From Halichondria panicea (taxonomy: Eukaryota; Porifera; Demospongiae; Suberitida; Halichondriidae), in the NCBI RefSeq assembly GCF_963675165.1, contig NC_087390.1, positions 3,855,175-3,919,174 on the forward strand: a stretch of 64,000 nucleotides of DNA. Reading direction: 5' to 3'. Below the pieces are notes generated by a model, which was given only the letters and a program-made list of their open reading frames with translations, ran no database searches and was not told the DNA's origin. Below, in pieces: positions 11,640-61,650 of this stretch. Every line of letters starts with the position of its first letter. The first letter of the stretch is position 1. The translations under genes and the position numbers were made by a program.

Positions 11640-14227
11640 GGGAGGAATTCACCATCAAACACCATCAAACTCAAACCCGACGCAACACCTCATGCACTCT
11701 TTGCACCTCGACACACACCACTACCAATCCGACCACAAGTGGAAGCAGAACTCAAACGGATGGAATCAATGGGAGTAATCTCAAAGGTTGACGAACCAAC
11801 CCCATGGTGTGCTGGGATGGTGGTGGTGCCCAAGAAACAGGGCAAAGTCCGTATTTGCGTTGACCTCAAACCTCTTAATGAGAATGTACTCCGTGAAGTC
11901 CACCCAATGCACTCGCCCAGCTCACTGGAGCAAAACTGTTCTCCAAACTCGATACCAACTGTGGCTTCTGGCAGATTCCTCTCGCAAAGTCATCACAACT
12001 GCTCACAACCTTTATCACCCCATTCGGTCGTTACCATTTCAACAAACTACCATTTGGGATCTCCAGCGCACCAGAACACTTCCAAAAGAGAATGTCGGCA
12101 ATCTTGTGTGGCCTAGATGGAGTTGTTTGCCAAATGGATGATGTTCTAGTATTTGGACGCGACCAGGCAGAGCACGACACAAGGCTCACAGCAGTCCTCA
12201 AACAAGTTGAATCTGCTGGGGCTACTCTAAACCCAGAAAAATGCGAATTTTCACGCAAGTCGCTGAAGTTCTTGGGACACATAATTGATGCCAATGGTAT
12301 CCGAGCAGATCCAGAGAAGACTGCCGCCATCCGAGAGATGAAACCACCCACCAACGTGTCCAAACTGAGGAGATTTATGGGCATGGTAAACCAGTTGGGT
12401 AAATTCTCCAAGGACCTCGCTACTCTGACAGCACCCCTACGAGTACTGCTGAGCAAAAAGCAAGCATGGACATGGGGCCCGAGTCAGGAACAGGCCTTTT
12501 CTCAAGTGAAAGAAGAGCTCTCAAAGTCAACAATCCTTGCCCTTTTTGACGTCAGAAAAGAATCAAAGATCTCAGCTGACGCCTCAGCCTACGGGGTGGG
12601 AGCGGTTCTACTACAGAAGACCAAATTGGGCTGGAAACCTGTTGCATATGCATCTCGATCACTCTCCGAAACCGAGCAGAGGTACGCTCAAATTGAGAAG
12701 GAGGCCCTGGCCATCACCTGGGCATGTGAAAAATTCTCTATGTACATTCTGGGCAAACGATTCGCAATTGAGACGGATCACAAACCTCTGGTCCCTCTTC
12801 TAGGAATCAAGCACCTAGATACACTCCCTCCTCATGTTCTCCGATTCAGACTACGGCTTGCACGGTTCGATTACTCCATTGAGCATGTTCCAGGGAAGTA
12901 CTTGTACACCGCAGATACTCTCTCACGTGCACCAGTCTCCGGAAGTGATGACCCCGACTCAGAGCTCGCGGAACTGGCCATGGAAGCCTGTGTTACTCAT
13001 CTCCCAGCAGGAAAAGATCGACTCAGTGAGTATCAACAAGCCCAAGGCTTAGACCCCCTGTGCTCGCTTGTGATCAAGTACTGCCGTACGGGCTGGCCTA
13101 CCAAGAATAAAGTAGATGAGGCACTTGCACCCTACTGGGAAAACCAAGGAGACTTCACTTTACATGACAACCTCCTGCTACATGGGAGCCGGATAGTCAT
13201 ACCAGCATCAATGCAACAACAGACTTTGATCAAGCTACATGCAGGACATCAAGGCATCGAGAGATGTAGACTGAGAGCCAGGATCTCAGTATGGTGGCCA
13301 GGAATATCCAGCCAAATCGAAAGGTTGGTGAAGACCTGTTCACATTGTGTCGAGCACACCTCGGAAGGAGCCCCTAATGCCGACAGCTCTTCCTGACTTC
13401 CCCTGGCAAAAGATAGGGACGGACCTGTTCACACTCAAGGGGACTATCTACATTGTGGCAACTGATTACTTCTCAAGATATCCAGAAGTAATAAAGTTGA
13501 CGACTACAACTTCGTCAAGCATCATTTCCGCCCTCAAGTCGATTTTTGCTAGATATGGCATACCAGAAGAGGTCCTCAACGACAATGGTCCCCAATATTC
13601 ATCACAGGAATTTCATGATTTTGCGAAGGAGTATGACTTCAAGCATACTACAAGTAGCCCTCATTTCCCACAAAGCAACGGTCATGCTGAAAGAGCCGTC
13701 CAGACAGCCAAGAAGTTGTTAAAAGGTTCAACTGATCCATACTTGTCACTACTGACGTATCGGACAACTCCACTACCCTGGTGTGGATTATCGCCAGCGG
13801 AACTACTGATGGGAAGACGACTCCGGTCTAACATTCCCCAAACAATTGGAACTCTTACTCCACAATGGCCACATCTGGAAGACTTCCGAGTTGCAAACGC
13901 AGAGTTAAAACAGAAACAGAAATCGAACTACGATTCACGTCACGGTGCAAGACCACTTGCTGACATTCCCCACTTGCTGACATTCCCAATGATACCCAAG
14001 TCTGGGTGACAACATCTGGTACTCAGGCACCAGGACAAGTTACTGCTCATGCGGACACCCCGAGATCATACCTGGTGACCACCCCAACCGGAGTGATCCG
14101 TCGAAACCGAACTCACCTGACAGTGAACCCTGATACGCAATCTGTCGATACCCCGGATGATCACGATCGAAGCCCGATTATGACTAGATCACGTACGGGC
14201 GGGCACACGAGTCACCCCCCCCAATAG
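11640..14227 (+). pseudogene. pol: G1 pol: reverse transcriptase, RNase H, integrase
   Basis: Domains in order: RT start (11,739-11,900: VKFR-type KVRICVDLKPLNENV; WCAGMVVVPKKQGK), fingers and palm in a second frame (SKLDTNCGFWQIPLA; FNKLPFGISSAPEHFQKR), MDDVLVFG catalytic loop (12,135-12,160), RNase H (ISADASAYGVGAVLLQ; ETDHKPLVPLL), integrase zinc domain (HAGHQGIERCRLR ... CSHC) and core (GTDLFTLKGTIYIVATDYFS; NDNGPQYSSQEFHDF; SNGHAERAVQTAKK). The longest intact piece is 12,092-13,396. Breaks: a 10-bp duplication at 11,650-11,670, a small deletion near 11,910, a break near 13,380 and a 17-bp duplication at 13,954-13,987. Confidence 0.88.
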
Positions 14228-24623: not shown

Positions 24624-25878
24624 TCATTCTTTGGATCCTTCCTGTTTGTATAAGATCCCATGCCCGACAGTTCCTCTGAGATACCTAAGCAATCGTTTCA
24701 AGGCTGTCCAGTGCTCTTTTGTCGGTTTACTAGAGAATCTTGCCAGACTGCTGACAGCGTATGAGATGTCTGGTCTTGTGTTGATGGACAGATACATCAG
24801 GCTCCCAATGGCAGATTGAAACTGCGGTTGGTCAATACCGTCTTCGTTTTCAGCTGCTTGGGTGAGTTTGGAGCTGATGTCAACTGGAGTGCTCACTGGC
24901 TTAGAATCTTGCATTTCAAAATTCTTTAGGAGACTCTCAGTATAAGCTGGTTGCCCAATCCAGAGAGATCCAGCCTTCTCGTTCTGCTCGACTTTTATTC
25001 CAAGGAAATAGTTTAGAGCTTTCAAGTCCTTGATGTTGAACTTTTTCGCAAGAGCTTTCTTCTCCTGCTCGAGTTTCGATTCTGTTTTTGCTGCCAGTAT
25101 TATGTCATCGACATACACACCCATATAGACCATTTCTTCACCTTTTCCTTTGTAGTAGATGCATGGGTCACCATTGACTAAATCCCATTTGTTTCAGGTG
25201 AGAATCGAGAGCGACATTCCAACACCTGGGCGACTGCTTGAGTCCATATATGCTTTTGTTGAGCTTGCATACCAGGTGCTCTTTTCCTTTAGTAGCAAAG
25301 CCTTCCGGTTGTCGCATAAAAACCTCCTCCTCAAGGGTGCCGTTCAAGAGTGCGGTGGTGACATCAATCTGGTGGAGTTTTAGGCCGTATTGGACTGAGA
25401 GGGCGAAGAGAGCACGTAGAGATTCTTGTCTCACGACTGTCTCGTCATAATCTGTCCCGTACTTTTGGGTATAACCTTGAGCGACCAGTCTTGCTTTGTA
25501 TCTCACAACAGATCCGTCAGCTCCTGTTTTCACCTTGAAAACCCACTTGCTCCCAACTGTTTTTCTATCAGGTGGAAGGTCGACCAGGTCCCAAACTTCG
25601 TTCTCTTTCAGCGACCTCATCTCAGACTCCATTGCTCCTTTCCATTTTGATTCGTCAGGACTAGAGGTAGCCTCTCGAAATGATGTGGGAGTTTCTGACA
25701 GGTTGCATTCCACTCTGCCATAGTAGTCAGGTTTTCGCGTTTGTCTCGTTGACCTGCGAATTTCGTCTGGTACAGTAGGACTTCTAGTCTGTGTGTCCAC
25801 TTGAGTTTCTGGTTCCGTTTCAGGCTCTTGGGTGCTAGACAGATCGAGGATCAATTGGTAATCACCATTAGTGTTCAT
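24624..25878 (-). pseudogene. Copia reverse transcriptase, one frameshift
   Basis: 25,168-25,878 encodes the linker and RT fingers: RSTRQTRKPDYYG, MESEMRSLKENEVWDLVDLP, VGSKWVFKVKTGADGSVVRY, KARLVAQGYTQKYGTDYDET, LHQIDVTTALLNGTLEEEVF, MRQPEGF and KLNKSIYGLKQSPRCWN. A one-base shift at about 25,168 leads to 24,624-25,133, with YMGVYVDDIILAAK (YVDD motif), FNIKDLKALNYFLGIKVEQ, SAIGSLMYLSINTRPDISYA and ALKRLLRYLRGT. Apart from the shift, all motifs are present. Confidence 0.87.
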
Positions 25879-27818
25879 ATCACTTGTAGCACCTTCTGCA
25901 GGTTTTTCTGCTTGCTACATCCATGCCACAACTCGTATGGGGTCTTGTTGTCATCGATGACTCTGGTTGGGCTCCGGTTCTTTAAGTAGACGGCTGTAGA
26001 CACTGCCTCAGCCCAAAACTTGTTCGGTAGTTTGGCATCAATCAACATGGAACGTGACATTTCAACAAGAGTGCGATTTAGTCTCTCGGACACCCCATTT
26101 TGTTCCGGTGTCTTGGGTACGGTCAGTTCATGTCGTATTCCTTCGCTCTTGAGATAGTTTGTGAATTGAGTTGAGGTGTACTCGCCACCATTATCCGTTC
26201 TCAGTGTTTTCACTTTGTTCTTGCTCGATTTCTCAACAAGTGCCTTCCACTTCACGAAACAGTCGAACACTTGATCCTTGGTTTTGAGTATGTACACCCA
26301 GGAGTACCTTGACTTGTCGTCAGTGAAGGTAAGGAAATACTGACCTCCTCCTAGGGATTTCTCACTGATTTTCCCACAAACATCTGAGTGGACTAGTTCA
26401 AGTGTCTCTTTCGATTGTCTCTTTGACCTGTTGAACGGGGTTCGGTGTTGTTTTCCTCCAATACACGTTTCACAGAAGCCAATGTTGTTTGACGTGTTGT
26501 AATCAAAATCTTCTATTAGTTGATTCTTTGCAATCTTTTGGAGGTTCTGTTCACCAATGTGTCCGTACCTTCTGTACCATAATCGCTCTTTGTTATTCTC
26601 CGCCAGGTGGACTGTTTGGGTCTTTCGACAATGCTCGACATAGTATAGGTTTCCGACCCTGGTAGCAAACAGGATCACCTTTCCTTCTTTATTCAAGATT
26701 TCACACCCGGACTTGTCGAACTTCGTGACTTTTCCCGCATGAGAAGCCTTTGACACGCTTAAGAGGCTGTACGAGAGATCTGGGACGAATAGCACATCGT
26801 TCAGGTTACATTTCTTGGTACTGCCGTCTGGCAAGAGTGTCTCCAGTGTCACCGTACCTTCGGCTTTCGCTTGTAATGGGTGTCCATCACCGAGAGTTAC
26901 TTCTTGCGGCGTTTCCAGAAATTGAATTTCGCTGAAGAGTTCTTTGTCGTTACACATGTGGCATGTGGCCCCTGAATCGACAATCCAGTTACCTCTTGAA
27001 GCAGCAGACAACGCATGAGTTGTTACTAGGGCCTCGCTATCGCTCTCTGGGCTCGCTTCATCCGTTTTTGCGGTGCTAGCTGATTCACCTTGTTTGGTCT
27101 GTGCCTCCTGAGTCGCTAAAAACTTTCTGCAATCACGTTTAAAGTGTCCAGGTTTCTTGCAAAAGTGGCAGGTTAGTGGTGGTTTCCTACCCTTCCTTTG
27201 ACCATTAGCAGCAAGTGCTCTTCGTCCGTCACTTGCAGGTAACTTTTCCTTGAGTTTTCGTTCCTCGTGCAAAAGTCTTTCTGTGACAAGTTCCCATTTT
27301 GGAACATTCTCCGACTGTGCTTCTAGTGCAGTGACCAGCACATTATACGATGTAGGCAAACCAGCAAGCAGGTGCACCACTCGGTCTTCTTCAGTTACAG
27401 GGTCACCAATGACCGCAAGTTCTTCGAACAACTCTGTCATAGTCTTTATATGCTCGTGGACAGGCTCTCCGTCTCTTAGCTTCAATGAGAAAAGCCTTCT
27501 TCTGAGTTGCAGCTTGTTGGACCATGTTTTTCTCTGAAATTGATCCTGTAGCCTTCTCCACACTTCGGTAGGGTCTTCCGGATCTCCAAGCAAATACAGC
27601 AGTGTCGGGTCTACGCCGAGCACAATTATTGCCAAAGCACTGTCCTTCCTCGACATGTACTTCGCAAGGGCTTCTGCATTGCCTTCATCTGGTGCTACTT
27701 CTGTTCCACTTACTATCCCCCAGAGACCGTCTTTCATCAGTGCCATTCTGCACTGAATCTTCCAGGTAGGATAGTTCTTTCCGTTTAGTGGTGCGATCGA
27801 AACCTTGACATTCGCCAT
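25875..27818 (-). CDS. Copia gag, protease and integrase
   Basis: One open frame of 647 residues from ATG (27,818). Gag (KVSIAPLNGKNYPTWKIQCR; VVHLLAGLPTSYNVLVTAL), a CCHC knuckle (CHFCKKPGHFKRDC), aspartic protease (WIVDSGATCHMC; VLFVPDLSYSLLSVSK), integrase zinc region (WYRRYGHIGEQNL...CETCIGGKQ) and core (VHSDVCGKISEKS; FTDDKSRYSWVYILKTKD; RTDNGGEYTSTQF; TPEQNGVSERLNRTLVEMSR). It stops shortly after PYELWHG; the usual C-terminal integrase and linker are missing, so an internal deletion lies at about 25,880. Known role: particle, processing and DNA integration. Confidence 0.92.
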   Translation of the reverse strand: MANVKVSIAPLNGKNYPTWKIQCRMALMKDGLWGIVSGTEVAPDEGNAEALAKYMSRKDSALAIIVLGVDPTLLYLLGDPEDPTEVWRRLQDQFQRKTWSNKLQLRRRLFSLKLRDGEPVHEHIKTMTELFEELAVIGDPVTEEDRVVHLLAGLPTSYNVLVTALEAQSENVPKWELVTERLLHEERKLKEKLPASDGRRALAANGQRKGRKPPLTCHFCKKPGHFKRDCRKFLATQEAQTKQGESASTAKTDEASPESDSEALVTTHALSAASRGNWIVDSGATCHMCNDKELFSEIQFLETPQEVTLGDGHPLQAKAEGTVTLETLLPDGSTKKCNLNDVLFVPDLSYSLLSVSKASHAGKVTKFDKSGCEILNKEGKVILFATRVGNLYYVEHCRKTQTVHLAENNKERLWYRRYGHIGEQNLQKIAKNQLIEDFDYNTSNNIGFCETCIGGKQHRTPFNRSKRQSKETLELVHSDVCGKISEKSLGGGQYFLTFTDDKSRYSWVYILKTKDQVFDCFVKWKALVEKSSKNKVKTLRTDNGGEYTSTQFTNYLKSEGIRHELTVPKTPEQNGVSERLNRTLVEMSRSMLIDAKLPNKFWAEAVSTAVYLKNRSPTRVIDDNKTPYELWHGCSKQKNLQKVLQVI

Positions 27819-27922
27819 ACCAGTTGATGAGACTTTTGTAGACTATAGTTGCTAGTAGAGTCGATTCGTTCGATTGAGTTCTTATAGTTCTTTCTAGCTA
27901 TATCAGTCCTGGGCCCATAACC

Positions 27923-28521: not shown

Positions 28522-28539
28522 CACCGCTGTTTCACAACA

Positions 28540-28943
28540 ATGAAAATTCACCACTTAGTTTATCAGGATGTAGTACATGATTATGACAAGATAATACATT
28601 CCACCAAACCACAAACCTGTGGAAGTTGGGGGCTGTTTTAGAGCATCCCATTGTGGAGGGGGGGTTCCAAAGTATGTGAAAAATGTGACTGTGTGGAAGT
28701 ATAGAGCATATGCTTTCCCTAGATACCAGTTTGATAAAAATTGATCAATCCCAGCACAAGCTGTATTGGTTTGTACAAGTACATCATTGTAGACGTCATG
28801 TGAGGTGTCTTTGGCAAAAAAGTACCACTGCCGGAGAATGTGTTTCGCAAGACTAGCAACCGTTACTATTTGAAAAGGTAAGCTCTTAGGTACCTATTGA
28901 TAGGCGACTTAAATGGGACAAAATTTTTGTAAGTGAGTTTTAA
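28540..28943 (+). pseudogene. Small convergent ORF of RAG1-like element, copy A
   Basis: The ATG lies 18 bp inside the terminal repeat (KIHHLVYQDVVHDYDKI). After several frame changes, ARLATVTI / TSNRYYLK-type text reaches a GT donor at 28,878. The next AG at 28,932-28,933 leads to codons S-E-F-stop. Copy B (56,012-56,430) has the same order, a short intron at the same place and the same kind of ending (S-E-L...). No known domain is recognised. Confidence 0.45.
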
Positions 28944-29028
28944 CTATTTCAAAGCAACACTTTTTAACATGTATTTTCTTGTCTGTACACGTACACAATC
29001 ATGTTGTAGAGGAATCAAATAAATAAAA

Positions 29029-30357
29029 TCAGTTATCGTTCTTCTTTTGCCTCTTTACAGGTGGAGGTCTGCATGCAATGGTGGATGGTGCTATGTAAAC
29101 ATAGTGCTGTTTCATCATACATCGGAGCCTCTCCACACCATTTGGAATGTTGCGATATGTAACTTTTAAATTGTTAAAATAGGCGTGGATCGCCTCAGCC
29201 CCTTGCTCTCCCATGAGTCCTATTCCCACCTGCCACTGGTCCAGCCAATCAACCACATGCTTCTCTAGCATGTGCATCTTTGGTATGACGGTTGCTTGAG
29301 GAAATTGCTCCCGATAAAATGTCATAAAGGTGGAGATGTGAGTACCTTTGGAGTAAATTTACATGGTACGTTGTCATTTTACACAATTTAAATTTACCTA
29401 GGGAAGCAATTTCCTCCTGTGTGATCATATTTTGATTATATATATTGTGACACTTGCTGAATAGAGTTAGGGTGACACAAAACTTGCACTCTTAACTATG
29501 GACGGCTCATAACTGCTTGCTCTGAGTACAACGGCATTGCAGAGTTTCTGAATGTTCCTCACCTGTAGAGTGATATTCAAAGTAAGTTTGTTTTTAGTTA
29601 ATAACGTACCTGGAGGGTCCGGTTTACGTGATTTCCCACCACAAACGTGCCACCATAGTACGTTTGTCTCCGAACATTGAAGTCTTCTAGAGCAGCATCT
29701 AGAGCCTTAACAAAAGGTCCGTCCTCTCTCTTGTACCCTTTTGCTGTTTTCTCGTTAATCTTAGTCCACTCAGCATCCTAATCCATAATTATGTACATAA
29801 CTCATCGTCTTAGTTTAATAATAATTATCACTCACAAGCTTCTTCGCGTGCGAAGCTTTCTCCTCAAATTCTGAGCGGAGTGCTGTGAGTCGAGGATCGT
29901 CTTCCTCCTCACCTTCACCAAACACACAGAGCAAGGCCACCAGGTCATTGAGTTGAGCCACTTCTTCGTTTACCCTATACATTTATTTTATTGCTTTATG
30001 TGTTCCATGTAAATTTAATCACCTGTCTTGAGGGCTCTCTCTCTCACAGAGTCACTCATGAAGTTTGAGTATGAAGGGCCACCCCTCTCGCGACTATCTT
30101 CAAACCATGAGACTGCATTGTCAAGCACATGACATTCATCCTCCATCAATTGGAAGAGCCGGTAAAAAATCCCTAAACTTATGTGCAGTCCTGGAGGGCA
30201 AACCTGCATTTCCATTTTGGAATAAGGTGGGTGTGAATTAACAATGTAGATCTTACTTGATTCAAAGGGATGCATTTGAAAAAAGGTTCCCGAACACAAT
30301 TGTTGAAGCTTTTGACGTTCTTTAGGATCCCTCCGGCTGCAATGAAGCTGTGGTGTC
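29029..30357 (-). pseudogene. RAG1-like transposase copy A, C-terminal exons
   Basis: Exons (minus strand) parallel copy B. About 30,249-30,357 (HHSFIAAGG; FNNCVREPFFK), 30,022-30,210 (CPPGLHISLGIFYRLFQLME; ERGGPSYSNFM), 29,838-29,975 (EVAQLNDLVALL; EGEEEDDPRLTALRS), 29,612-29,777 (GYKREDGPFVKALDAALEDF; RRQTYYGGTFV), about 29,397-29,565, and 29,029-29,340 (FYREQFPQATVIPKMHMLEK; GIGLMGEQGAEAIHAYFNNL; GVERLRCMMKQHYVYIAPST). The H-x4-H pair (HMLEKH) and the third catalytic Glu (GAEAIHAYFN) are present. In-frame stops occur in the 29,397-29,565 exon. It lacks the exons with the two catalytic Asp. Confidence 0.8.
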
Positions 30358-30447
30358 AACACATTCTTAATTCCAATGATGACGATGAGAGAAGGTACAA
30401 TTTAATTAACCAATTAAGAGACTGTGCAAACATTTTATTCTTTTTAG

Positions 30448-30819
30448 AGTGCACCGGCTTACTTGGCATGAAGGGAAGATACCTGCTGACGAGATCTGGG
30501 TCAAGTTGGGTGGAGATAAGGGAGGAGGGAGTTTGTTTTAAGATGGTATTTCAGATATGTAATGTAGAGCATCCTAATTCCCCTGTTAATACCTGTGCTT
30601 TTTGTGTTTTTGAGGCTCCCGAGGCTCCCGACAACGTTACCAACTTGAAGATCGCACTACAGAGGTTCGAAGATGAGGTGGACAGCCTACAGAGCAAGAC
30701 ATGGAGGTACTAAGCAGAATATTAAAAACTGAATGTTTTATAATTGTAACGTGTACGAGTATTCCTTAGCGGGGATTATGAGTTCCTGTGTAACATATAT
30801 GGGCTGTCATGTGCTTCAG
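30448..30819 (+). pseudogene. RAG1-like transposase copy A, catalytic middle exons
   Basis: Exon 30,448-30,706 encodes HRLTWHEGKIPADEIWVKLG followed by GDKGGGS, the first catalytic Asp, and then MVFQICNVEHPNSPVNTCAF and NVTNLKIALQRFEDE. A 4-base insertion straight after GDKGGGS shifts the frame. Exon 30,759-30,819 encodes RVFLSGDYEFLCNIYGLS, with the second catalytic Asp, and ends at GTAAAAG. It is oriented opposite to the C-terminal exons next door, so the copy is rearranged. The following sequence belongs to a Tnp4-like gene. Confidence 0.8.
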
Positions 30820-30889
30820 GTAAAAGGAATAACTATATACACATACCTTACTTTATGTGAAATTCTGAAATAGTTAGCCATTAGTTTTT

Positions 30890-36526: not shown

Positions 36527-38508
36527 CACCGCTGTTTCAAGACCTCCACTTAGTTTGTAATTAGAACGGACTGCAATTCAACGAAATATTGAAAAGTGGG
36601 TGTGGTTTTTGAACAATTTTATTTCCTGTTTTGTGCAAACTTATACCCATAGCAACTTGTTTGTTATTCATTGAAGTCACATGAAAGTTATATGAGTGTC
36701 ATGTGCACCCTGTCATCTACTGAATGACACGCGCATAACAACAGGCATTTAGCTGCGCGTGCGCAGCTAGAAACTACACTGCACCTGTTAAAGGTATCAA
36801 CTACAAGTTGTAAGTGGATGTTTTGATAGCTACTCACTGACTACCAGAGTGTTTCTTTGAAGTGAAATTTGCAACAACTGAAAGAGGAAGTTCCATACTA
36901 CAGTTTCAACAACGACAGGTATTGGACAAAATTTTTTGGCAGCAACAATATGAAACATGACACAAATTTACGATATTTACACATGCACATTGATATATAA
37001 TGAACAAAAACAGACAATTCATTTGCATCAACCTTCAGGAATGAGTCAAGAACATCTTGAGGCACTTTGCAGGCACTGCAGGGTTTGTGGATCTCTCTTT
37101 AAGAACAAGAAAGGTCCCTCAGGTTGGAGATATGTCTGCTCTGACAGGCACGACGACCTCCTGGAGGTGTTTGGAATAGATGTAACAGATGACTCGGATT
37201 TAATGCACCCTAAAACATACTGCCACCCATGCAACAACATAATATATCACACACACAAGAAGGCCAGTGATGGTAAACTGTACAACCCCAAAAAGGTGAT
37301 TGCTACGTGGACTGATCACACAGAAGATGATTGCCCCGTGTGTACGAGCATTAAGACTCACAGTGTTGGTGGGAGGCCGAAGAAGCAATACAAACCTGGC
37401 AGACCGGCAAAAGGCTCATTTCAGTCAGTCAGCCATCCAGCACATCAAGCTGATAGCTCCCTCCACCTTCTGCGAACAAGACACAGTACTACCGTCGCAA
37501 GGTTGTTTTGACTGTCCTATCTGTAAAAAGATAGTAGACAAACCTATCGAACTCAAGACGTGCGGTAGTCTTGTCTGTGCAGATTGTCTGTGCCAGTGTC
37601 TACAAGAGTCTCAGACGACATCAGCCAATCAGGACATCTTGATGATGTTGAAGCAATACAACCTCCTTCCGAGATCACTTTGAGAGCCTTGGGAAGCCTT
37701 GAGGTCACGTGCAGTGTGTGCAGGAAACACGGGTGCTTAAAACACCACAAGGCCCACCATGACAGCAAGTGTGCATGCACACACTTCAAACCAGCAGCCC
37801 TCAGCCCTTCAGACTTGTTAAGCAGACCTGAAGAACTGTCCTTGTCCCCATTTGAAGAGAAACTGAAAACTGTCCTCATCAAGCGCAGTATGCGCAACTC
37901 CAGCATTCTGGAGGTGAAGACAGGGGGACGGGTGAGAATAAAAACAATAATGACATAATTATAATTATATATTTTTTACAGCCTCTCAAGCTGATGCAAG
38001 TCAGCTCACCTAGCGTGTCCAGCGGCACTGCAAGCCAAACCACCCTGAGACGGCGCAGTAGTGAGCTGCAGGACATCAGGAAGAGAGTGAGTGGTGGTGC
38101 GGAGGTACAGCAGATGAGCAACGAGGTCAAGACTGCAGGGAAGGAAGATCAGGATAAGTTGATAGAAGAGCTGAAAAAGACGGCAGGGTGCTTCCAGGTT
38201 ACGTTTTCAGTCAGCCAAAGTTTAGGTATCCAGTCTGTTCTCATGATTCCCAGGAACAAGCTGCGGATCATGAAAAGGTGAATATGTTATGTATGTATAT
38301 ATGACTTACCTCTTTTAATTTTTCCTTCTAGAATGTTAGGGTCCAGTGTAAAAATAGCGTCTGAGAAGAAGATGCGGGCTGAAGCTAACTCTCTCATAGG
38401 AATAGATAATCTTAAGTGTCAGCTTGTTCCCTTCACATTTCCAGTCAAGGATGGCCGGCACACTGTGGAAATTAAGAATGTTCCCATGTGTTATACACCA
38501 CATTTGAA
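36527..38508 (+). mobile_element. RAG1-like transposon copy A, 5' segment
   Basis: It starts with CACCGCTGTTTCAAGAC (36,527-36,543), followed by CACTTAGTTTGTAATTAGAA and a 5' leader that matches 60,140-60,535 of copy B in reverse complement. The RAG1-like N-terminal exons follow. Homology to copy B ends in the middle of the exon coding NVPMCYTPHL at about 38,507, where a different repeat-rich sequence begins. Confidence 0.82.
37041..38508 (+). pseudogene. RAG1-like transposase copy A, N-terminal exons
   Basis: Exons 37,041-37,931, 37,982-38,277 and 38,332-38,508 are joined by GT-AG introns of 50 and 54 bp. They encode an N-terminal Zn region (CRVCGSLFKNKKGP; YCHPCNNIIYH; CPVC), GGRPKK and PGRPAKG basic motifs, a RING-type region (CPICKKIVDKPIELKTCGSL; CADCLCQCL) that has lost its last CPFC pair, and a second finger (CSVCRKHGCLKHHKAHHDSKC). 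Helical stretches (LRRRSSELQDIRKRV) and IMKR|MLGSSVKIASEKKMRAE follow. A 4-bp TCAG duplication at about 37,424 and a deletion near 37,615 break the frame. It is a pseudogene by itself, but useful as a second witness of the exon structure. Confidence 0.82.
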
Positions 38509-55408: not shown

Positions 55409-55993
55409 GTGATATTTTTAATTAGGACACCACGCCGTCTCCTGTATTCTTATTACTGTACACTCACTACAAAGCTATACCCTCGACAAATGTTCTGTTA
55501 CCAAAGTCTCGTTTGCTCCCTACAAAATCTCTTCTCACGCCTATTTAGAAATCGCCACATGACACCTGGTACTCTAACGGATGTGTATGATGGTAGGGTT
55601 TGGAATGAGTTCCTAAACCCCCAAGGTAGACCATTTCTTTTGCTCCCTTATAACTTGGCGTTGACTTCAACCGTTTAAGCATACTACATACGCATACATC
55701 ACTGACAATGTTATCCTTGTTGGCATAATGCCTGGACCTAAAGAACCCAAGAAAAATGTGAATACTTATTTACAACCGTTGACTGAAGGAGTTGTGGACA
55801 GGTGTACCAATGAAAGTCGCCTCAGAAGTACATGTGATTGTCAGAGCCACGCATTTCCTGTGATATTCCAGAAGTATCAGGATTTGTAGGTCACCAAGCA
55901 TATCGTGCATGTTACCGCTGTTTAAAGACAGAGACCTTCGGTGAAAAAGCTGATTATACTGGCACGGATCGTAGTTCTTGGCCACCTAGGTTA
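55409..55993 (+). pseudogene. CACTA/EnSpm Tnp2-like transposase copy 2, 5' part
   Basis: Frames in order read LFSRLFRNRHMTPGTLTDVY, DGRVWNEFLNPQGRPFLLLP, then (about 55,707-55,790) NVILVGIMPGPKEPKKNVNT with YLQPLTEGVVD, then CDIPEVSGFVGHQAYRACYR and FGEKADYTGTDRSSWPPRL. The GxMPGPKEP and CDIP...GF.GH....CYRC blocks are Tnp2 hallmarks. The gene is cut at WPPRL by the RAG1-like terminal repeat at 55,994 and resumes at 60,536. Confidence 0.85.
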
Positions 55994-56006
55994 CACCGCT
56001 GTTTCA
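55994..56006 (+). repeat. RAG1-like element copy B, left terminal inverted repeat
   Basis: CACCGCTGTTTCA, identical to the ends at 28,522-28,534 and, in the partner orientation, to 36,527-36,539 and 60,523-60,535. The CAC start parallels the heptamer of recombination signal sequences. Confidence 0.88.
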
Positions 56007-56011
56007 CAACA

Positions 56012-56430
56012 ATGAAATTTCACCACTTAGTTTATCAGGATGTACTACATGATTATGACAAGATAAACATTCCTTCAAAACCACAAGCCAGTAGAAATGG
56101 GTCCGGTCTTAGGAGTATCAGTATCCCCATGGGAAGGGGAGTTCCCAAGTATGTGTAAAATGTGGCTATGCAGGAAGTACAGACTCTGTACTTTCCATTG
56201 ATGGTAGTTTCATAAAAATCAGGCTATCTTAGCACGTGTTGTAGTTGCTTGTTCAGTACATGGTTTTGGGCAAGGTTGTATGGCGTCTCCAGTAGAGAAG
56301 CACTTCTGTCAACAAAAGCGTTTCTAAAGACAAGTAACAACCAGTACATTATAAAGGAAGCTCTCAGGTATGTATTGATAGCTGCATCGTACTGTACTTT
56401 TTTCTTTTCAGCGAGTTAAAACCATTTTAA
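56012..56430 (+). CDS. Small convergent ORF of RAG1-like element, copy B
   Basis: The ATG is 18 bp inside the terminal repeat (MKFHHLVYQDVLHDYDKINI). Frame changes follow, then coding-like text CGYAGSTDSVLSIDGSFIKI, ARVVVACSVHGFGQGCMASP, and SNNQYIIKEALS across a GT-AG intron of 44 bp (56,368-56,411), ending ELKPF-stop. Copy A preserves order, intron position and ending. In ProtoRAG elements the RAG2-like gene lies convergent to RAG1-like in this position, but I see no Kelch repeat or PHD finger, and about 110-140 residues is far too short. It could be a remnant or an unrelated accessory protein. Confidence 0.45.
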
Positions 56431-56490
56431 AATGACACTTTTTATTGTTTATCATACAGTACAGTTAACATTAACAAATAAAAAAATAAA

Positions 56491-59400
56491 TCATAAGCTC
56501 TTCTTTTGTCTCTTCTTAGGTGGAGGTCTGCATGCGACGGTGGATGGTGCGATGTGGACGAAGTGTTTCTTCATCATGCATCGAAGCCTTTCAACACCAT
56601 TCGGGATACTCCGGTACGTTATCTTTAGGTTGTTGAAGTAGGCATGGATACTCTCTGCCCCTTGCTCTCCCATGAGCCCTATTCCCACCTGCCACTCATC
56701 AAGCCAGTTGACCACGTGTTTCTCCAGCATGTGCATCTTCGGTGTTACCGTCGCATAAGGAAAATGCTCCCGATAGAACGTCATGAAACTTGAGATGTTC
56801 AGACCTTTGGATTATAAAAGTACTTTCGTTTGTCATTGTGCACAATTATTTACCTAGGGACGCAATGTCCTCCTCTGTGACGGCATTCTGGTTGTAAATG
56901 TTGTGGCACTTACTGAAGAGATTTAACACCACAGAAAACGTCCTCTGTATCTTCTCAGCTCTCTGGTTAATGGTAGGGGTATACTTTCTTGCCTCCACCA
57001 CTACTGAGTTACATAGCTGATGTATGTTGTCAGGCTGCAGAGAGTGATGTCCAACATATTTAAGCTGTAACTACTGTGTTTGTGAAACCTACCTCAAGCG
57101 TTAGGTGAACATGGTTTCCCACGAATGTTCCACCATAGTAGGACTGCCTTCTCACATTGAAACCCTCCAGAGCAGCATCTAGGGTTCTGACAAAGGGACC
57201 ATCCTTTCGTTTGAAGCCCTTTGCGATCACAGCATCCAGTTTGCCGCACTCAGTGTCCTGAAAATCAGTGTGACTGACACATTGTGTATGATTTAGTGCT
57301 TACTAGTTTCTTTGCCTGCCGAGCTTTCTTCTCAATCTCAGAGCGGAGGGCTCGCAACTCAGGATCATCCTCCTCCTCACCCTCGGCGAACACCACAAGC
57401 AAGGCGACCAGTTCGTTGAGTTGAGCCACTTCATCATTTGCTCTGTAATTATGTTCACTTAATAAATGCGTATTTATTGTTAATACATGTAAATAACCTG
57501 TCTAGCTCATCCCTGAGGGTCCTGGCTCGAGCAAAGTCATCCATATAGTTAGCGTATGTGGGACCACCCTTCTCGCGACTATCTCGTTCGTCTCTTACAG
57601 CCCTGTCAAGTTGATGACACTCGTCCTCTAGAAGTTGGAAGAGGCGGTAGAATATTCCCAAACTTATATGTAGCCCTGGTGGGCAAACCTACGTTTCCAT
57701 TGGAGATAAGGTGAGTGGTAAATAATAATGTCATATCTTACTTGATTCAAAGGAATTTGTTTGAAAAAAGGTTCCCTAATGCAGTTGTTGAAATGCTTCA
57801 CTCTGCTTCACTCTGCTTGGTATCCCACCGGCGGCAATGAAGTTGTGGTGGTCCTGCAACAAGCTGCCTATATTTCTACTTGCAACTGTGGTGGGTGGTG
57901 TCCTCAGCTGATCGGATGCTATCAAACACCATAAACAGCAATGTCGACCTACATGTGTAATTATTATAATACAGGCCCGAAGTATTACTTATTATAATTG
58001 TACCTGCAGCACCTGACAAGCCAAATATGTTGCACAGGAACTCATAGTCTCCGCTGAGAAACACTCGAATATTCTTTCCTCTAAAAGTTAAAGAGTATGA
58101 AACTATGTATTGTTGGTTTTTTAGTACCTCCACGTTTTGTTGTGCAGGTTGTCGATCTCGTCCTGGTCCTGGAAGCGCTGTAGTGCTATCTTGAGGTTGG
58201 TTGCGTTGTCAGGAGCTTCAAACGCACAGGTGTTGATAGGGGAATTTGGGTGGTCGACGTTAACGATTTGGAAGGTCATTTTAAAACTCCCTCCTCCCTT
58301 GTCCCCTCCAAGCTTGACCCATATCTCATTTTCTGGGATTTTACCGTTGTGCCAGGTTAGTCGGTGCACTCTAAATAGATTAAAGTGTTACACAGTATCT
58401 GTATGGTTACATATGTAATTTATTGGTAGAGCATGGTCTCTACCTTCTCCCAAAGATGTGGAGTGAAGCACATAGGGACATTCTTTACTTCCACTGTGTG
58501 TCCGCCATCTCTGAGTGGGAATGTGAAGGGGACTAGCTCAGCCTTAAGATTTTCAACACACGCGAGAGAATCAGCTTCAGCCCGCATCTTCTTCTCTGAA
58601 GCTATCTTTACATTTGGTCCCAACATGCTATATAAGAGGGAAAATTGCTTGAGGTAGAGGAAGTATGTTATCTGTACATGTTATCTGTACATGTATTTAC
58701 GCCTTCATGATCCGCAGCTTGTGATACGGTATTGTCAAGACCGACCGATTGTATCCCCAGGCTCTCTGCAACTGAAAACTTGATCTGGAAGCACCCTGTT
58801 GTCTTCTTGAGATCCTCCACCAACTTCTCCCGGTCTTCATTTTCTCCCGGTCTTCATTCCTTGTTGCTTTCACCTCGTGGCTCATCTGTAGCACCTCTTC
58901 TCCACCGCTCACCAGTCTTCGAACCTCCAGCAGCTCACCGCTGCGACGTCTCAAGGTGGTTTGGCTGGCACTCGCACTAGATACTCGGGGTGAGCTAACT
59001 TGTACCAGGGTTCGAGACTGTGGAATTATGCATTCTATAATAATTATTGGCATATTTATTTGTGTTCTTACCTGTCCTCCCGTCTTCACTTGTAGAGACT
59101 GGGAGCTGTGCATACTGCGCTTGATTAGGCTAGATTGCCATTTCTCCTCCATTGGGGACAGTGACACGCATTCAGGCGTGTTTAGGAGATCAGATAGGTT
59201 GAGTGGAGCAGATTTGAAATACGAGGTCCCACACATGCTGTCAATGTGCTCTTTGTGGTGTCTAAGGAATCCCTGCTTTGAACACTTACTGCATGTTACC
59301 TCAATACATTCCAATGCCCTCAGGGTGATCTCAGAAGGAGGGTTGATGTTTTCAAGATCGCTGAGGTGGTCTGTTTTGAGGTGACAGAAAGGACACGATG

Positions 59401-59991
59401 GGGATTGAGACACTTGTAACCACCTGCACAAGCAACCAGCACAGGCAAGCCTACCACACAGCTGTAACTCAATCGGTCTGTCTAGTATGTACAAGCATAC
59501 AGGACAATCGAAAAAACTTTGTGAGGCAACAACCGATTCTTGCTGACAGATGGTGGGAGGAGCTATCGATTTAATGTGCTTGATCGCTGACTGGAATGAG
59601 CCTTTTGCTGGTCTGCCAGGTGTGTAGGATTGTTTCTTTGGCCTCCCACCAACACTGTGAGTGCTAACGCTTAAACAAACTGAGCAATTAACACTGTGTG
59701 CAGACCAGGTCGCAATCGTTTTTTGTGGATTATAATCTTTTCCGTCTCTAGTGTGCTTAATAGTATGATAAATAATGTTATTGCATGGGTGACAATATGA
59801 TTGGGGATGAATTGCGTCCACATCTTCGTTCACTTCTATCCCAAAATCACTTCTATCCCAAAAACCTCCAGAAGATCAACCTTTCTGTCTGAACAGGAAT
59901 ACTTATGGCCTTGAGGACCTTTCTTGTTCCTGAAATAAGACCCACACACCCGACAGTGCTTGGAGAGTGCTACAAGGTGCTCATCATCCAT
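56491..59991 (-). CDS. RAG1-like transposase (11 exons), copy B
   Basis: ATG at 59,991. Exons: 59,072-59,991; 58,701-59,017; 58,444-58,627; 58,128-58,370; 58,005-58,080; 57,742-57,948; 57,498-57,688; 57,304-57,442; 57,093-57,257; 56,854-57,034; 56,491-56,804, joined by GT-AG introns of about 47-240 bp. Total is about 978 codons; RAG1 is about 1,040. N-terminal Zn region (CRVCGSYF; CHPCNNI; CSVC), GGRPKK/PGRPAKG, RING (CPVCLYILDRPIELQLCGRL...CPFC, about residues 160-210), second finger (CSKCSKQGFLRHHKEHIDSMC type). The core follows: first Asp in KLGGDKGGGSFKMTFQI (about 497), second in FLSGDYEFLCNIFGLSG (about 566), C-x2-C in RHCCLWC, PFFKQIPLNQVCPPGLHISL, H-x4-H in PKMHMLEKH (about 899) and Glu in GEQGAESIHAYFN (about 925). 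These match the order of RAG1 D600, D708, C727/C730, H937/H942 and E962. Frame breaks: a 17-bp duplication at 59,830-59,863, another at 58,825-58,858, and a 10-bp one near 57,790. Removing the duplicates restores the frame. Confidence 0.85.
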
Positions 59992-60522
59992 TCCTGAATG
60001 TATTATTTGTTGTTAGTCTTTAACCATACTATGTGAGTATATATAAATCATTATTGTATTGAAGTCGTAATTATTTTTTGTCAATTTTTGGTCAATTTTC
60101 AATCCTAATTAATATTTGTTGCAAAAAAAAGTGAAGTTACCTGTTGCTGTCAAATAGTAGTATGAGACTTCCTCTTGGGATTGCTGCAGAGATCACTTGA
60201 AGAAAAACTCTTTTGTTGTCAGGAATTAGTGGTCAAAACATCTACTTAGCACCTTGTAGTTGACCATTAATTAAGTGCAGTGTAGTTTGCAGGTGCGCAT
60301 GGGCAGCCTAATGACTGTTGCTATGCGCATTTGGTGTCATTCAGTAGAGGACAAGGTGCACATGACTGTCACTCTGCTTTCATGTGATTTAGATGAATAA
60401 CTAAGCAGTTGCCATGGGTAAATATTTCATAATACAAGAAATTTACAGATGTAAAACCACACCCACTTTTCAATATTTCATTGAGTTGCATTCTGTTCTA
60501 ATTACCAACTAAGTAGCAGTCT
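59992..60522 (-). promoter_or_regulatory. 5' leader and presumptive promoter of RAG1-like element
   Basis: About 530 bp between the terminal repeat and the ATG are conserved, diverged but colinear, with 36,544-37,040 of copy A (blocks AGTGGGTGTGGTTTT, CATGTGCACCTTGTC-type, CTGCAAACTACACTGCA-type). Conservation in two copies suggests function as a promoter or transposase-binding region. No defined TATA box is claimed. Confidence 0.5.
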
Positions 60523-60535
60523 TGAAACAGCGGTG
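60523..60535 (-). repeat. RAG1-like element copy B, right terminal inverted repeat
   Basis: Reverse complement CACCGCTGTTTCA, followed inward by AGACTGCTACTTAGTTGG. GTTA (60,536-60,539) is the right copy of the target duplication. Confidence 0.88.
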
Positions 60536-61650
60536 GTTAGAATGCACAAAGAAGCGAAAACTCATGCAGAACAAATCACAATTGAGAGAGAACATGGCTG
60601 CAGATACTTTGTCATTCTAGAACTTCCTTATTTTGAGGTATTCTGTTATGCACAATCTGTTACTGGGAACCGCAAAACGCTTTCTTTCTGTTTTCTGTTT
60701 GAGCATACAGGGAAAGGTAGATAGTTTCATCACACCTTCTGATGTGGGTCGGATACCTTCGAAAATAGCTAGTGGATTCTCAGGATTTACAGCTGAGGAA
60801 CTGGACTCTTATTTATTCACTGAAAGGAGTTTTACCACATAGACTGTTGGCTGTTATTTGTCAAAGCAGTTTCCTTACTGTGTAGGCGTCGCATAACTCT
60901 TTTAGCACTGGAAAAAGGTGATGACCTCTTAATGGAGAAACTGTACGGTAAAGACAAGTACACCATCAATATTCATCTTCATGCTCACTTGAAGGAAGCT
61001 CATTTTGGCTATTTAGTTTTAAACTATTTAGTTTTAAACGTACTAATTGCCATGACATTTCATTGCAGTTAATGAGGATATGTTGGGTTACACAATTGGC
61101 CTGAGGAATATCGATCAAACTTTATACCACTCCTTAAGAATAAAGACTATTGAGGTGGTTCTCTTCAGCCGGACTGTTTAGAGCAAGCTCTGAAAGATGA
61201 GTTAGTTACGATACCCCCAGTTATTGAAAGAGCTTGGGAAGTTTCTCAAAAGCATGAGCTGACGACTTCGCTAATTGGGCATGTTTGTTAACTCTTTACC
61301 ATAAGCACCGACTTTAACTATTGGAGGATTTGTACTAGGCTATACCACTAAAACTCATGTGATGGCTATTAATCCTAATGGAACTGCACTTCGCTAAAAT
61401 TGAACATTTTTGTAAGGTAAACTATAATTGTTCAGATTCTACTGGCACTACTTCAAAATGGGTTGCTAGTGTAGTGTTTTATGATGTGCATCAATGCCGA
61501 GTGTGGTATGGTGGACCGACTGAAGTGTGGTGTCGTTCTCTGTCAGCAGCTGGTTCGCTTTACATCGACTTATCAGGTATTCAAAGTCGCGTTGCATATT
61601 GTGAAGCTGATGTTGATTTCGGAAGAGTGATTGGAATTATGATTGTATCA
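60536..61650 (+). pseudogene. CACTA/EnSpm Tnp2-like transposase copy 2, 3' part
   Basis: It resumes the gene cut at 55,993: HKEAKTHAEQITIEREHGCR, YFVILELPYFEV, LRYSVMHNLLLGTAKRF, DSFITPSDVGRIPSKIASGF and SGFTAEELDS. Then comes GKDKYTINIHLHAHLKEAHF-type text (about 60,950-61,010) and a C-terminal block KWVASVVFYDVHQCRVWYGG, PTEVWCRSLSA and VAYCEADVDFGRVIG. VMHNLLLGTAK corresponds to the DPMHNLxxGTAKH motif in copy 1. A one-base change near the junction shifts the frame even after removing one GTTA. Large internal gaps and stops show decay. Confidence 0.82.

Follow-up and report, generated by a model that had tools for sequence, protein, structure and literature searches.

In a window of 64,000 nucleotides from the genome of Halichondria panicea (contig NC_087390.1, positions 3,855,175 to 3,919,174, numbered here from the first letter of the stretch), positions 55994–60535 hold an element that we place, with a probability of about 0.93, among the cut-and-paste DNA transposons of the Chapaev superfamily, here in a sponge. 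The assignment follows from a transposase core that matches the Pfam family DUF1280, from a Chapa domain accompanied by a RING, and from target duplications of 4 base pairs (bp). An initial annotation, made from the DNA letters alone, had described the element as a RAG1-like, ProtoRAG-type transposon; the RAG1-type N-terminus holds (E-value 8e-8), while the core matches DUF1280, the duplication measures 4 bp and no RAG2 was found. The type of element is already known, a Chapaev with a RAG1-type N-terminus and a RING having been published in 2015. A literature search of limited reach, with Repbase Reports outside it, found no statement on a sponge Chapaev or on asymmetric bipartite Chapaev ends, and it is to the latter that a large part of the evidence below is devoted.

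The transposase gene and its family

The transposase gene, on the minus strand, consists of 11 exons, the number given at the outset and borne out by a comparison of copies. They are separated by 10 short GT-AG introns whose places are conserved. The intron check held for 10/10 introns in the copies L010 and L009 and covered seven introns in L012; for intron 3 of the window copy no clean solution emerged. The exons of the window copy are as follows.

59072–59991, minus strand: exon 1, with the RAG1-type Chapa/importin-binding zinc region, the GGRPKK...GRP hooks, the RING and the extra finger; a 17-bp tandem duplication at 59830–59863 shifts the frame
58701–59017, minus strand: exon 2; a 17-bp tandem duplication at 58825–58858 shifts the frame
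58426–58647, minus strand: exon 3, its 3' edge ill-defined in the window copy
58128–58371, minus strand: exon 4, with the first catalytic Asp (GGDKGGGS); 5' edge approximate
58004–58080, minus strand: exon 5, with the second catalytic Asp (SGDYEFL)
57742–57948, minus strand: exon 6, with the CxxC zinc ligands (CCLWC); broken frame
57498–57688, minus strand: exon 7, with GLHISLGIFYRLFQL, weakly like RAG1 ALHCDIGNAAEFYKIFQL
57304–57442, minus strand: exon 8
57093–57257, minus strand: exon 9
56854–57034, minus strand: exon 10
56491–56804, minus strand: exon 11, with HMLEKH and GEQGAE (catalytic Glu block)

When compared to L010, a copy on another contig in which the 11 exons make one open protein of 976 amino acids, the window gene displays several frame breaks, two of them at exact 17-bp tandem duplications, and its exon 6 is split between frames. 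The description of the element as near-complete is thus right for its architecture, the order first proposed (N-terminal zinc region, then RING and extra finger, a DDE-type core with CxxC and a C-terminal Glu block) being confirmed, and wrong for its coding capacity. The window copy encodes no complete protein; if it can move at all, this would be through the transposase of another copy.

A profile search of the spliced protein, which the initial annotation had suggested, gave a different answer for each half. In the open L010 protein, Pfam RAG1_imp_bd was found at residues 38–109 (5e-11) and DUF1280 at residues 352–550 (3e-15); the open reading frames (ORFs) of the window alone return the same two families (9.6e-12 and 7.3e-12, the latter on exon 4), and Pfam finds no RAG1 core match in the L010 protein. 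Across the genome, the RAG1 N-terminal model matches in at least 14 places and DUF1280 in at least 13. Against PDB sequences, the best match of the L010 protein is to RAG1 chains (6oem, which we take to be mouse RAG1; 8e-8), and it pairs residues 38–263 with RAG1 152–398 only; among the matches listed, nearly all others at E<=1 are chains of RING proteins or of related ubiquitin/SUMO ligases. The core was followed up with a profile, A1, built from six copies (6/18 aligned rows), in which CxxC is invariant (6/6 rows). This profile has no match in PDB at E<=10, although RAG1, a RAG1L-named chain and the transposase 6pqn, presumably Hztransib, were in the set, and no relatives of the core were confirmed in viral and genome contig collections. 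A direct alignment of the core with the RAG1 core by hhalign gave one short stretch, GLHISLG-IFYRLFQL against ALHCDIGNAAEFYKIFQL (E 0.037, probability 1.4), a likeness that is suggestive only.

The literature makes sense of this combination. Chapaev transposases are what DUF1280 stands for, and in one published analysis RAG1 and DUF1280 fell within a single clade (PMC3985635). Chapaev also carries the N-terminal Chapa domain known from RAG1, which in two Chapaev subgroups is followed by a RING (Kapitonov and Koonin, 2015, PMC4411706), and the CMCT motif comprises CxxC and H(3-4)H between the second Asp and the Glu (PMC12730594). With the Chapa-plus-RING subgroups of Chapaev (CMC/CMCT clade), the sponge element has in common the DUF1280 core, the Chapa zinc domain, the RING, the CAC tips (5'-CAC...GTG-3') and the 4-bp duplication; it differs in its sponge host and in its bipartite ends, asymmetric by one turn, a description of which for Chapaev the literature search did not find. 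With RAG1, ProtoRAG and the RAGL elements it has in common the RAG1-type N-terminus, the RING, a DDE core with CxxC and His, CAC tips and bipartite asymmetric ends; it differs in a core that is not detectably related, in its single 11-exon gene with no RAG2 found, and in duplications of 4 bp rather than 5 bp, those of RAGL in protostomes being invariably 5 bp (PMC7204232). Transib has CAC tips in common with it and a CMCT-type core motif (PMC12730594) to which the sponge core corresponds in part, while Transib duplications are of 5 bp and no Transib is said to carry the RAG1 N-terminal region (PMC8355894).

Membership in the ProtoRAG/RAG1L family can draw on the N-terminal zinc/RING match to RAG1, the CAC tips and the short core stretch, and we nonetheless reject it as highly improbable on core family and duplication length: a RAG1 core is found neither by Pfam nor by the core profile in PDB, the duplications are not of 5 bp, and genome searches with the RAG1 core (PF12940) and RAG2 (PF03089) models, both run without a positive control, gave 0 matches each; the transposase is the sole gene found in the element. 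A core in another DDE family, with no significant RAG1 or Transib match, is what the initial annotation itself had named as evidence against its reading, and this is what the searches returned. The proposal that a sponge element would push the RAG family to the base of animals falls with it, since the element is a Chapaev; outside Bilateria, RAGL has been reported from cnidarians (PMC7204232). Kinship to RAG does persist through the Chapa domain published for Chapaev (PMC4411706), short of membership in the RAG/ProtoRAG family. N-RAG-TP of Aplysia is described as a RAG1 N-terminal-like sequence (PMC8355894), and a comparable RAG1 N-terminus lacking a transposase of its own is hardly credible for the sponge element, in whose open copy a single 11-exon reading continues through the DUF1280 core.

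Bipartite ends and their spacing

The element is bounded by perfect 13-bp inverted ends, CACCGCTGTTTCA, starting with CAC, and by the target duplication GTTA, in agreement with the ends and flanking duplications first noticed. Together with the blocks behind the tips, these features are the following.

55990–55993, no strand: target site duplication GTTA, left copy
55994–56006, plus strand: 13-bp terminal inverted repeat, gene-3' end (long-spacer end), from inverted-repeat match and genome 13-mer count
56007–56023, plus strand: 17-bp spacer of the gene-3' end, from end comparison
56024–56033, plus strand: second block CACTTAGTTT of the gene-3' end, 0 mismatches
60506–60515, minus strand: second block of the gene-5' end, reading TACTTAGTTG, 2 mismatches
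60516–60522, minus strand: 7-bp spacer of the gene-5' end, from end comparison
60523–60535, minus strand: 13-bp terminal inverted repeat, gene-5' end (short-spacer end), from inverted-repeat match
60536–60539, no strand: target site duplication GTTA, right copy

The genome-wide search with the 13-bp ends that had been proposed found the exact 13-mer 42 times in 131 Mb (39 contigs), against 1 occurrence of the reversed control. The target duplication is of 4 bp in 9/9 copies paired by the exact 13-mer and of 5 bp in 0/9; Chapaev makes 4-bp target duplications.

Behind the tip stands the second block, CACTTAGTTT, 6–7 bp off at the gene-5' end and 17–18 bp off at the gene-3' end. In the genome, the tip followed by CACTTAG at any gap of 2–30 bp was matched 31 times, with gaps of 17 (21 matches), 7 (8) and 6 (2) and no other, while the control gave 0. 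With one further short end, CACTTAC at gap 7, the block is present at 32 of the 42 exact tips and missing from 10, including the window right end (TACTTAGTTG at gap 7). Under a relaxed pattern there were 43 genome matches, against 12 for the reversed control, and after inspection these 43 were divided by a GAAACA...GTG tip: the 38 that have this tip show spans of 26 (2), 27 (11), 37 (23) and 38 (2), corresponding to gaps of 6, 7, 17 and 18 only, and the remaining five (spans 23, 34, 34, 43 and 45) look like chance matches. When 37 ends were compared, 31 had the block with at most two mismatches, at a spacer of 6–7 (13 ends) or 17–18 (18 ends), and 6 were without it; random window sequence gives the block within two mismatches at such spacers in 1.9% of trials.

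The two spacings are distributed one to each end. In 10 of the 11 complete elements that we compared from families A and B, one end is short and the other long (L009, L010, L011, L012, L013, L014 with a part-decayed block, L015, the window element, L056 and L057), and in L016, the eleventh, the block is lost at the left end. The short end lies on the 5' side of the gene in 9 of the 10, L014 having no remaining gene match.

This conservation has to be set against the age of the copies. The copies are about 67–71% alike in DNA over long aligned stretches, and in the 5/7 comparisons to L010 that gave a finite synonymous divergence (dS), dS is 2.0–2.9, nonsynonymous divergence (dN) 0.17–0.28 and dN/dS 0.08–0.10. 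With two family-B copies, dS is beyond estimation and dN is 0.45–0.46 (34% of nonsynonymous sites differ). As dS is near saturation and dN/dS low, the copies represent deep lineages kept under selection, not one recent burst. We also observed that the final 60 bp at the gene-3' end hardly differ, if at all, between L010, L011, L012, L013 and L015, even though synonymous sites in L011, L012 and L013 are close to saturation relative to L010 (L015 being outside this comparison); either strong constraint or an exchange of ends between elements could account for it.

Family B consists of two 4.4-kb elements, L056 (C17) and L057 (C1), 98.7% identical over the compared stretch and flanked by different duplications, CAGC and ATGG, both of 4 bp (2/2), from which the family seems to have moved recently. 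Its tips read CACAGGTGTTTC and its blocks lie at spacers of 7 and 18, a difference of 11, so that the one-turn asymmetry is kept despite the divergence of the transposase. L056 has open pieces that match the exons, as judged by the match alone, and in L057 exon 1 is interrupted by an insertion and exon 6 is broken. In family B the RING is kept and the extra finger after it is missing. Family C is a single copy, L071, whose candidate ends, selected in part for being flanked by matching 4-bp duplications, have TTTTAGTT in common at spacers of 7 and 10. A universal one-turn asymmetry is weakened by this one copy.

Several points weigh against our interpretation of the element and its ends: the HxxxxH motif is kept in just 4 of the 6 A1 rows, the first catalytic Asp is a Glu in L009, and the spacing in the third family, L071, differs by 3 bp only. 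The last of these is also in favour of a possible, if rather unlikely, alternative, namely that the asymmetry is shared ancestry, an old spacer insertion in a founder pair of ends that has since been carried along without function. In its favour, too, several lineages have almost the same left end over 60 bp, and the 38 ends are therefore not independent. Against such passive inheritance, spacer length has stayed within 1 bp while synonymous sites became saturated, spacer letters vary between lineages (5 long and 7 short sequences among the 31 block-bearing ends), family B keeps the difference of 11 with other spacer letters, and one short and one long end are found in all but one of the complete family A/B elements.

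The arrangement resembles that of the vertebrate recombination signal sequences (RSS). In the 12RSS and 23RSS the nonamer starts at base 20 or 31 (7+12+1, 7+23+1), and in the sponge CACTTAG starts at 20–21 or 31–32 from the tip; the letters of the sponge block are unlike the nonamer, and the sponge sites are transposon ends with a putative signal function. The P element and piggyBac, whose transposases are unrelated to Chapaev, likewise have internal transposase sites set off from their two ends by spacers of different length. ProtoRAG ends are likewise bipartite and asymmetric, with TR1 and TR5 at spacers of 27 and 31, while those of Transib are mostly symmetric, unlike those of the sponge element (PMC8289069). 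Bipartite asymmetric ends are a style in common with RAG1 and ProtoRAG and no proof of membership.

Related fragments, host genes and other features of the window

The second copy reported earlier for the window does exist as related sequence, in pieces (28522–30827 and 36527–38506) and not intact.

28522–30355, minus strand: 3' half of an element, with a 17-bp-spacer tip and the flank ATGT
30276–30827, plus strand: piece coding for open-copy residues 436–583, in inverted orientation next to the 3' half
36527–38506, plus strand: 5' half (residues 1–456 of the open copy), with a 7-bp-spacer tip and the flank ATGT after reverse complement

As the flanks of the two tips would make one 4-bp duplication (ATGT), the pieces are probably one element rearranged more than once, with two separate elements as the alternative. 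The tips of 28522–30355 and 36527–38506 point the same way. A single simple inversion does not account for the order, given the inverted piece 30276–30827.

The window also holds Ty3/gypsy-type reverse transcriptase and integrase ORFs at 11897–14006 on the plus strand, the gypsy label being our own, and Ty1/copia-type gag-pol ORFs at 25171–27842 on the minus strand, both identified by Pfam. Beside the insertion site of the element, Pfam found 0 families in the ORFs of four flank pieces, and Rfam nothing at gathering scores within the window.

We counted 79 perfect two-copy tandem duplications with units of at least 9 bp in the window (1.23 per kb; for instance 58825–58858, 59830–59863 and 61009–61038), and none in five Markov controls. 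The commonest of these units is 17 bp (20–22 cases), near a ceiling, with 1–2 units of 18 bp and none longer; other loci, 135 kb in all, again have 17 bp as the commonest unit of at least 12 bp (17 cases), with 5 longer. Mismatches between the two copies are rare. Six cathepsin loci have 5 such duplications in 21.8 kb, none of them in the longest ORF of each locus. Either a mutational process or an assembly artefact may be the source.

The sponge host, which the initial annotation had only supposed, holds because silicatein-type genes are present. A search with a silicatein fragment found exons in which the cathepsin Cys is replaced by Ser (GDCGASYAFSAMGALEG in L069 and CGSSYAFGAIGALEG in L070), together with an ordinary cathepsin L-type gene with GSCWAFS (L068). 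Silicateins are markers of siliceous sponges. COX1 gave a single short nuclear fragment, which did not help to place the host.

A possible pairing mechanism and its meaning

What can be read directly from the DNA, namely the gene, its ends, the duplications and the near-identical sister-family copies at different sites, is compatible with the following course of events. The core, with the Asp of GGDKGGGS, the Asp of SGDYEFL and the Glu of GEQGAE, would cut beside the CAC tips, and insertion with a 4-bp stagger would leave the 4-bp duplication. The ends may be read as a bipartite signal made of the 13-bp tip and CACTTAGTTT, two sites that would share a helical face, and as the two spacings lie about one helical turn apart, a long end would pair with a short one. 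Candidate binders of the A/T-rich second block are the GGRPKK/GRP motifs, which sit between the Chapa region and the RING; in an alignment with RAG1, the GGRP motif of RAG1 comes after the RING and that of the sponge protein before it.

More speculatively, and in our estimate improbably, Chapaev transposases would already use an RSS-like pairing rule under which only a short and a long end together are productive, and the 12/23-type asymmetry and the Chapa-RING region would be a shared Chapaev/RAG heritage, older than the symmetric ends of Transib and reaching down to sponges.

Altogether, the analysis corrects the tempting claim of a RAG transposon in sponges and leaves a testable alternative in its place: a sponge Chapaev with a RAG1-type N-terminus, present as several deeply diverged lineages under purifying selection. 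The one-turn asymmetry of its ends is of the kind exploited by the 12/23 rule, and may be either ancestral to RAG or convergent with it.

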